Positions 6,283-14,656 of a stretch of DNA of 46,537 nucleotides are shown piece by piece. How positions within the stretch are numbered: position 1 is the first letter of the stretch; each line of letters begins with the position of its first letter. A model generated the notes under the pieces. The model was not told the origin of the DNA. It saw nothing but the letters and a program-made list of their open reading frames with translations, and did not search any database. Where the stretch lies: positions 1 to 46,537 of the forward strand of contig JAOAFU010000166.1 in NCBI GenBank assembly GCA_026416115.1, written 5' to 3'. The translations under genes and the position numbers were made by a program. Source of the stretch: Bacteroidales bacterium. Its GTDB lineage: Bacteria > Bacteroidota > Bacteroidia > Bacteroidales > DTGW01.

Positions 6283-6675
6283 ATGGAGTTATTGAGGATT
6301 GAATCGACCAAATTTACCCCTGGTATAGTACTGGATCCCCATACTCACGTTTTGGAGTTTTACGGTTTCTCTTTACCCGAAAATGCCATTGAGTTTTATC
6401 AGCCAGTTATCAAATGGCTTACCGCATATAAAAATGAAATACTAAATAAAAACAAATATCCAGAAATAAATGTCATTTTTAAATTTTCCTATTATAACTC
6501 ATCATCGTTAAGAAAGCTTATAGAAATTTTTTCCCTTTTCAGCGAAATGTACCAAAAGGGAGTTCCTGTAACTATTTCGTGGCAGTACGATAGTGAAGAC
6601 CCCTCAATGGCCGAGAGTGGAAAGGAAATTGGCGATATAACCAAAATACCCGTTACTCTCATTGCTTACAATTAA
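6283..6675 (+). CDS. SiaC-family regulatory phosphoprotein (DUF1987), Ser-site paralogue
   Basis: A 130-residue protein homologous to the second SiaC-like protein at 14193-14573: both share a start ME.L.IE.T..TP, SIPEN/SLPEN.IEFY.P...WL, and a Y(Y/F)N(S/T)SS core. SiaC proteins are phosphorylated by a SiaB kinase and dephosphorylated by a SiaA phosphatase, and they switch an effector on or off; in Pseudomonas aeruginosa the site is a Thr and the effector is a diguanylate cyclase. Here the equivalent residue is Ser73 (YNSSS) instead of Thr. It lies 24 bp before an S41 protease gene and is probably the first gene of that operon. The partner kinase is presumably the SiaB 7 kb downstream, which is inference. 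Confidence 0.8.
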   Translation: MELLRIESTKFTPGIVLDPHTHVLEFYGFSLPENAIEFYQPVIKWLTAYKNEILNKNKYPEINVIFKFSYYNSSSLRKLIEIFSLFSEMYQKGVPVTISWQYDSEDPSMAESGKEIGDITKIPVTLIAYN

Positions 6676-13246: not shown

Positions 13247-13615
13247 GTTCATGAACTTTATCTTAGATTCGATTGTTAAAGTCTTGATAAGAATTTATTG
13301 TGAAGATAATAAGCAAAATTCGATTGTTTTACTGGATGTTTTAACTGTAAAAACTTGAAAACAAAAATGTGGAATTAAGGTTATCGAAATTAAAACCAAC
13401 CAAATATTTTTTCAATTCTCTTGCACAAGGGTGATATTTACAACCCAAATAATTTATTAACCATTTCTACTTTAAAAAATTTTTGTATAACCTTCGAAAT
13501 ATGAAATGGCTAATAATCCTATAAAAATAAAAATATTATTCTTGTGAAATTATTTTTTTATATTTGTTGAAGTAAAGTAACCTTATCCGCAAGTACTAAC
13601 CTGGCACCTAAACTT
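13247..13615 (+). other. 369-bp intergenic region before siaB, with a -7 element at 13559-13566
   Basis: No coding frame, tRNA or clear hairpin is visible. The stretch is very AT-rich. A perfect TATATTTG (13559-13566) lies 49 nt before the SiaB start and is the likely promoter; the nearest TTG box (13542-13544) is only 14 nt upstream of it, shorter than usual. The rest may hold an untranslated region or a regulator site, but nothing specific can be called. Confidence 0.5.
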
Positions 13616-14173
13616 ATGCATTTTAATTTTGATGAGTATTACAATAAATTAAATGATGATGGCGAGGTTATATTAGCCTATCATGGTACAATAACAGCAG
13701 ATGGCATAAATGGAGTGCTAGAGGCTGTGGAGTCAAAACTCGATGGAATGGGAATTGACCCCAAAGTTAAAAAGAAAGTATATAATGTATTGGTTGAAGG
13801 TTTACAAAATCTTTACCACCATATTGATGAACTGCCTCAAGATTTTGCCCCACAATTTGCACACAAGTTTGGTGTTGTAGTAGTTCGAAAAAAAGAAGAA
13901 TGTATAAAAATTACTCTGGGAAATTTTATTAATGTTAAAAAAACAGCTTATCTTAAAGATAAAATTGACAAAATAAACTCCTTATCGGAGGATGAACTAA
14001 AAGATATGTACAAGTTTATTCTTAATCATCAAAAGTTGTCTGTTAAAGGCGGTGGTGGCTTAGGTTTATTGGATATGGCACGTAAATCGGGAAATAAACT
14101 TGGATATGAGTTCTTCGAATTTAATTCAGATTATCAATTTTTTAGTCTTGATATTACTATTAATTATGTATAA
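13616..14173 (+). CDS. siaB: SiaB-family protein kinase (GHKL-fold, DUF6272)
   Basis: A 185-residue soluble protein. A GHKL-like N-box EGLQNLYHH (Glu61, Asn65) and a glycine-rich lid motif KGGGGLGLLDMARKSG (from about 144), with GNFI at 102-105, match SiaB kinases, relatives of anti-sigma-factor serine kinases. SiaB phosphorylates the small protein SiaC, whose gene starts 19 bp downstream. In P. aeruginosa the siaABCD module also has a membrane phosphatase SiaA and a GGDEF enzyme SiaD; neither is here. A TATATTTG promoter lies 49 nt upstream, and a terminator follows the pair, so siaB-siaC is a self-contained two-gene unit. The symbol is given by family. Confidence 0.85.
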   Translation: MHFNFDEYYNKLNDDGEVILAYHGTITADGINGVLEAVESKLDGMGIDPKVKKKVYNVLVEGLQNLYHHIDELPQDFAPQFAHKFGVVVVRKKEECIKITLGNFINVKKTAYLKDKIDKINSLSEDELKDMYKFILNHQKLSVKGGGGLGLLDMARKSGNKLGYEFFEFNSDYQFFSLDITINYV

Positions 14174-14192
14174 AGTATAAAAGCAGTGTGTT

Positions 14193-14573
14193 ATGGAACC
14201 ATTGATTATTGAAGGTACAGCAAAAACCCCAACGGTGAATTTCAATGCATCGGAAGGATTAATTGAAATTAAAGGACGCTCCATCCCCGAGAACTCTATA
14301 GAGTTTTATAAACCTCTTGTTGATTGGTTAGAAGAATACTCCAAATCGCCTGCGCCCCATACAACCGTAAATATTCAGCTGGAGTATTTTAATACCAGTT
14401 CGTCGAAATGTATTCTCGACGTATTTAAGAAGCTCGAAGCTATTTACAAAAACAAAAACGATGTGAAAATTAACTGGTACTACGAAGAGGATGACGAAGA
14501 TATGCTTGAAGCAGGTGAAGATTATGAATCAATTATCCGTGTACCCTTCAATATGATCGAAATAGTAGATTAA
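14193..14573 (+). CDS. siaC: SiaC-family regulatory phosphoprotein (DUF1987)
   Basis: The 126-residue partner of SiaB. Conserved features are MEPLIIEGTAKTPTVNF, SIPENSIEFYKPLVDWLEEY, and LEYFNTSSSKCILDVF, where Thr68 occupies the position of the phosphorylated Thr of P. aeruginosa SiaC. The acidic stretch YEEDDEDMLEAGEDYE precedes the last strand, as in the other family members. Phosphorylation state should decide whether it binds an effector; which effector is unknown because no GGDEF enzyme is nearby. It is paralogous to the 6283-6675 product, which has Ser at the acceptor position. Confidence 0.88.
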   Translation: MEPLIIEGTAKTPTVNFNASEGLIEIKGRSIPENSIEFYKPLVDWLEEYSKSPAPHTTVNIQLEYFNTSSSKCILDVFKKLEAIYKNKNDVKINWYYEEDDEDMLEAGEDYESIIRVPFNMIEIVD

Positions 14574-14631: not shown

Positions 14632-14656
14632 GATGCCGTAAAGGCATCTTTTTTTT
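14632..14656 (+). terminator. Rho-independent terminator after siaB-siaC
   Basis: A perfect 6-bp stem GATGCC/GGCATC with a GTAAA loop is followed by eight Ts, 58 bp past the siaC stop. Confidence 0.85.

Follow-up and report, generated by a model that had tools for sequence, protein, structure and literature searches.

The closest described relative of the genes treated here is the SiaABCD partner switch of Pseudomonas aeruginosa, made up of the PP2C/SpoIIE phosphatase SiaA, the kinase SiaB, the phosphoprotein SiaC and the diguanylate cyclase SiaD (PMC7647112, PMC8457831; structures 6k4f, 6kko and 7e6g). The roles of SiaC T68 and SiaB E61 have been described there (PMC7647112), and SiaC contacts SiaD through alpha2 and alpha3 around T68 (PMC8457831). 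In the HsbA/HsbD and BgrV/BgrR partner switches, STAS-domain proteins also act on diguanylate cyclases (PMC8457831). A different kind of output is known from Mycobacterium tuberculosis, where the FHA-ABC transporter Rv1747 is tied to Ser/Thr phosphorylation (PMC5549992). SiaC-family proteins are widespread, and those studied in the papers that we found act through c-di-GMP. Our survey of the open-access literature (subscription papers were outside its scope) found no study of DUF6272, of SiaC partner switching in Bacteroidetes, or of SiaC together with an ABC transporter.

The window, by which we mean the whole stretch of 46,537 nucleotides that was analysed, holds a siaB-siaC pair and a second siaC gene some distance upstream:

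6283..6675, + strand: siaC2, second SiaC paralogue of 130 aa with a Ser acceptor (YYNSSS), between guaA and ctpA
13559..13566, + strand: TATATTTG, resembling the Bacteroidetes -7 promoter box by sequence, without a -33 box at canonical spacing
13616..14173, + strand: siaB, SiaB-family (DUF6272, GHKL-type) protein kinase of 185 aa, from Pfam, NCBIfam and alignment to P. aeruginosa SiaB
13796-13798, + strand: codon of the predicted catalytic E61 of siaB, aligned to P. aeruginosa SiaB
14193..14573, + strand: siaC, SiaC-family (STAS-like) phosphoprotein of 126 aa, from Pfam and alignment to P. aeruginosa SiaC
14394-14396, + strand: codon of the acceptor T68 of siaC, invariant in 64 full-length orthologues
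14632..14656, + strand: intrinsic-terminator-like stem-loop 3' of siaC (6-bp stem at 14632-14648) with a run of 8 T

Judged by their sequences, siaB and siaC are real, intact genes. The siaB product matches Pfam DUF6272 at E 7e-36 (123 bits, cut-off 26.6) and NCBIfam SiaB_fam_kinase (NF038262) with 139.1 bits (cut-off 85), and aligns to the SiaB chain of the P. aeruginosa complex 6kko at E 3e-8; the siaC product matches Pfam SiaC (PF09345) at E 2.5e-47 (159.9 bits, cut-off 24.5) and aligns without gaps to the SiaC chain of the same complex at E 5e-17. These matches confirm a first, sequence-only reading of this DNA, which had seen a GHKL-type kinase directly before a SiaC with a Thr in YFNTSS. 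That Thr lies in a YxNTSS loop and falls on the P. aeruginosa acceptor; because the alignment is gap-free, it is T68 in both proteins, and SiaB E61 too is numbered as in P. aeruginosa. The SiaB residues E61, Q64 and N65 and the lid KGGGGLG line up with their P. aeruginosa counterparts, and the lid together with the N-box residues E61, Q64, N65, H68 and H69 is invariant in 74 orthologues. Both proteins score far under the cut-offs of the Pseudomonas equivalog models (69.9 bits against 225 for SiaB, NF038264; 100.5 bits against 150 for SiaC, NF038265), so we regard them as members of the families and not as biofilm-regulating equivalogs.

The pair had also been credited with a promoter and a terminator of its own. 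The terminator-like stem and T run do exist; chance would give roughly one site of this kind per region, but the position of this one fits the end of an operon. Upstream of the window siaB, the canonical Bacteroidetes -33/-7 pair was not found by the pattern test, and a scan for sigma-70-like promoters returned no more sites than chance would. The -33/-7 pair does precede siaB in 42 of 72 orthologues, against 2 of 73 control stretches. The genes 3' of the window siaC encode a zinc-binding dehydrogenase and an Mntp-type efflux pump.

Relatives of the window SiaC occur in at least 556 stretches of genome_contigs, and the best 80 of these, all from Bacteroidota MAGs, were read. At 79 related loci SiaC is 75-87% identical, siaB almost always lies upstream of siaC, at a median distance of 24 bp, and the gene order guaA, (siaC2), ctpA, pnuC, AAA (nadR-like) gene, rlmL-like gene, siaB, siaC is widely kept. 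A SpoIIE phosphatase gene was found within 10 kb at a single one of the 79, which makes the arrangement lacking the phosphatase the conserved form. The next gene after siaC, in convergent orientation, encodes a TerB-ABC protein of about 1025 aa at 68 of the 79 loci; this linkage has been lost in the window's genome and its family. The cassette is no isolated oddity; it is a conserved locus whose likely output can be named by comparative genomics. Median pairwise identity at the related loci is 81% for SiaC, 77% for ribosomal protein S1, 55% for SiaB and 58% for the transporter, the comparison of SiaC with S1 being subject to selection bias since the loci were picked by SiaC similarity. Two unusual forms were seen. 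At L128:158-1201 a 347-aa open frame, apparently a SiaB-like/SiaC-like fusion, directly precedes a type-1 siaC (the type is defined below), and a 602-kb Bernardetia plasmid of a Cytophagales strain carries an orphan siaB-siaC pair (L213:6419-7378), with no annotated SpoIIE, GGDEF or TerB-ABC gene within 7 kb.

The sequence-only reading reported neither a SiaA phosphatase nor a GGDEF protein in the window, and our searches of the window likewise found no SpoIIE and no GGDEF domain. The whole-genome search that it proposed separates the two absences. The assembly (3.08 Mb, 92% complete) encodes 11 SiaC proteins, 7 SiaB domains in 6 genes and 14 SpoIIE phosphatases, and at that completeness it holds no GGDEF domain at all. 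The phosphatase is thus absent from the locus and not from the cell, whereas the diguanylate cyclase is absent from the genome as a whole. With 14 SpoIIEs, phosphatases are plentiful in trans: those on contigs C81, C201, C99 and C227 adjoin SiaC or SiaB-SiaC, and the other 10 adjoin no SiaC. The same reading held that a siaA/siaD pair elsewhere, binding this SiaC, would make the system the standard one. Contig C81 does supply SpoIIE-SiaB-SiaC, and the fourth gene there encodes an ABC transporter, not SiaD.

That reading missed siaC2 (6283-6675), which lacks a siaB of its own in the window and has one in the relatives L088, L103 and L106. Of the genome's SiaC proteins, five are encoded next to a siaB, and four of these have Thr as acceptor; the six without a neighbouring siaB all have Ser. 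Pfam searches of the neighbours of the other SiaC paralogues (DNA ligase, HypD, IspD, RNase H and others) gave housekeeping genes and no common output. Since the genome has 11 SiaC proteins to 4 TerB-ABC proteins, not every SiaC can own a transporter. One gene of this genome, 362 aa, encodes two tandem SiaB (DUF6272) domains (L042:11656-12744).

The transporter of about 1025 aa combines TerB, ABC ATPase and ABC-2 membrane domains, and it meets SiaC in two gene orders. On C81, a SpoIIE gene truncated where the contig ends is followed on the same strand by SiaB, SiaC and TerB-ABC; this gene order, there with a GAF-PAS-PAS-SpoIIE protein of about 870 aa, was found in all 10 other tandem-form genomes of the order that were read in detail, and outside Bacteroidales in G049. 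Among 119 genomes of the order, the tandem form of SiaC and TerB-ABC, mostly with 20-150 bp between the genes, is present in at least 36 and the convergent form in at least 20; one or the other arrangement is present in at least 41 of the 51 genomes that carry SiaC. In trees, the copies from convergent loci (type-1) and those from tandem loci (type-2) separate into clades of their own, both for SiaC and for the transporter (support 1.0 for the transporter clades, 0.95 for type-2 SiaC, weak for type-1 SiaC), as if SiaC and the transporter had been duplicated as one unit. The type-1 clade includes a transporter of the window's own genome, encoded on C232; both type-1 partners are therefore retained in this genome, although their genes are not linked. 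SiaC-transporter linkage is thus present in relatives and in the paralogous operon on C81 and absent at the window locus. For the type-1 pair adjacency alone is weak evidence, as it is convergent and lies within a region syntenic over many genes.

For one type-1 transporter, residues 1-262 were modelled well (pLDDT 84): seven helices, corresponding to the TerB region, are followed by a beta domain. The best Foldseek matches of this model in the PDB are, with few exceptions, FHA domains; most probabilities are >0.8, but the E values are 0.02-0.6, and at such E values the FHA-like assignment is a lead, not proof. The Foldseek search against viral structures gave no useful match. Beside TerB-ABC in both arrangements we found two further genes, one encoding about 305 aa and the other about 145 aa (L168:7595-9005, L198:5598-6977, L185:3060-4449), for which a Pfam search returned no convincing family; their products are possible partners of the transporter. 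In addition, on C59 (L046:931-6395) a TerB-ABC gene is directly followed by a SpoIIE phosphatase gene with no SiaB or SiaC, and at L195:7188-7754 a SiaB without SiaC lies close to a type-1 transporter cassette.

Co-occurrence links the two families as gene order does. SiaC is present in 51 of the 119 genomes of the order, in up to 21 copies. Forty-nine genomes have both SiaC and TerB-ABC, 2 have SiaC only, 4 have the transporter only and 64 have neither (Fisher P 4e-26, a statistic that ignores the relatedness of the genomes). HypD, a control of roughly similar prevalence, showed no association (16 of 51 SiaC genomes against 24 of 68 others, P 0.7). GGDEF is rare in the order (5 of 119 genomes, two of them with SiaC), and 49 of the 51 SiaC-bearing genomes lack it. 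The median SpoIIE count is 17 in SiaC-bearing genomes versus 1 in the others. When 248 genomes from the phylum were surveyed, TerB-ABC appeared in just five, exactly the five members of the class that have SiaC, and these lack GGDEF. Outside the class, SiaC was present in nine genomes, each of them with GGDEF and without TerB-ABC. Two of these nine (loci L204 and L205) carry a SpoIIE-SiaB-SiaC-GGDEF operon in siaABCD order. The fourth operon position is held by a cyclase in one class and by the transporter in the other. An Azospirillum plasmid has the SpoIIE-SiaB-SiaC-GGDEF operon with a histidine kinase gene in between.

The face through which P. aeruginosa SiaC meets SiaD is near-invariant in type-1 SiaC (n=64), with positions 63-82 and 97-111 at >=97%. 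Y65, N67, T68 and S69 are kept, and nine SiaD-contact positions carry fixed replacements (D29R, Y31I, I71S, M75L, D79K, R103D, L107A, E110D, D114I). Type-1 and type-2 SiaC have in common R/K29, I/L/M31, A107 and I/L/M114; SiaC proteins of other classes mostly have E/Q/S29, Y/F31 and S/T/M107, and often D114. On this sequence evidence the changes fit a new partner on the same SiaC face, with shared ancestry within the class as an alternative cause. The acceptor is Thr in all ABC-linked SiaC proteins examined and Ser in most unlinked paralogues.

The two independent gene orders, the co-occurrence, the matching type-1 and type-2 clades and the changes at SiaD-contact positions together point to the transporter as output. 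We think it likely that the cassette supplies the kinase and the substrate of a partner switch of the SiaABC type, and that in Bacteroidales this switch has the TerB, FHA-like, ABC transporter as its output and not a diguanylate cyclase; the earlier suggestion that the output may be something else is probably right, given a genome without GGDEF and the comparative linkage to the transporter. We also lean, a shade less firmly, towards the fuller account, in which the SiaABC switch exchanged its cyclase for the TerB-FHA-ABC transporter and gates it directly, the window pair being a conserved stand-alone copy served by a phosphatase in trans. A SpoIIE made elsewhere in the genome would, on a signal, remove the phosphate from SiaC T68; the best candidate would be the SpoIIE of the C81 operon, or else one of the unlinked SpoIIEs. 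Unphosphorylated SiaC would then use its alpha2/alpha3 face to dock on the N-terminal, cytosolic region of the transporter, a binding step that we infer, and would thereby change transporter activity. SiaB is predicted to phosphorylate T68 with ATP and so to end the docking.

A standard siaABCD system, with SiaC activating a diguanylate cyclase encoded elsewhere, is nearly refuted and in our judgement highly improbable. SiaB and SiaC are plainly related to their P. aeruginosa counterparts, and true operons of that type occur in other classes of the phylum and, as a variant, on the Azospirillum plasmid, but the own genome and nearly all SiaC-bearing genomes of the order offer no GGDEF protein to activate, and the residues of SiaC that would contact SiaD are changed. 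The idea of a decaying remnant that lost siaA and siaD draws on the absence of both from the window; it is refuted by conservation, the catalytic and acceptor residues being invariant over dozens of genomes and the siaA-less form being kept at 78 of 79 loci. A stronger rival, which we nevertheless hold to be unlikely, has type-1 SiaC acting on some other, unlinked partner (e.g. a transcription or stress factor); its position next to the transporter would then reflect inherited synteny, and only the type-2 paralogue would control the transporter. It would account for a type-1 linkage that is convergent, at a locus without SpoIIE, and lost in the window's own family; the conservation of SiaC above that of ribosomal protein S1 may also hint at several partners, subject to the selection bias mentioned. 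Yet in both gene orders the transporter joined to SiaC belongs to one and the same family, the clades of the type-1 and type-2 pairs match, and the two types share changes at SiaD-contact positions.

The polarity of the switch could also be the reverse of that between SiaC and SiaD in P. aeruginosa, with phospho-SiaC as the active form and the FHA-like domain of the transporter reading phospho-T68. FHA domains prefer phosphothreonine, the predicted N-terminus of the transporter combines TerB helices with a beta domain for which the top PDB matches are, with few exceptions, FHA, and Thr is the acceptor wherever SiaC is linked to the transporter. Rv1747 offers a comparison (PMC5549992). However, the FHA matches are weak, Thr is the acceptor in most cyclase-class SiaC proteins as well, and phosphorylation breaks SiaC-SiaD binding (PMC8457831); we consider reversed polarity improbable. 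If the switch does act on a transporter, this would explain the role of many SiaB, SiaC and SpoIIE genes in a large group nearly devoid of c-di-GMP enzymes, would give a named, testable partner to an unstudied signalling network, and would mean that a partner switch can trade one output for another and still keep its kinase, its substrate and the order of its genes.

Among described systems, HsbA/HsbD and BgrV/BgrR resemble the present one in that a STAS-domain protein modulates a partner enzyme in a partner-switch pathway, and differ in belonging to other protein families and in having cyclase outputs. Rv1747 is alike in architecture only, as an ABC transporter with a regulatory, FHA-type cytosolic N-terminus and a connection to Thr-phosphorylation signalling. 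It differs in working without SiaB or SiaC; its signalling involves Hanks-type kinases, and we know of no TerB domain in it. With P. aeruginosa SiaABCD the locus shares the SiaB-SiaC pair and its gene order, E61, T68 and the YxNTSS loop, and its genome shares SpoIIE. It departs from SiaABCD in a genome without SiaD or any GGDEF protein, a locus without the phosphatase, altered SiaD-contact residues of SiaC, many SiaC paralogues per genome and, as seems likely, a TerB, FHA-like, ABC transporter as output.
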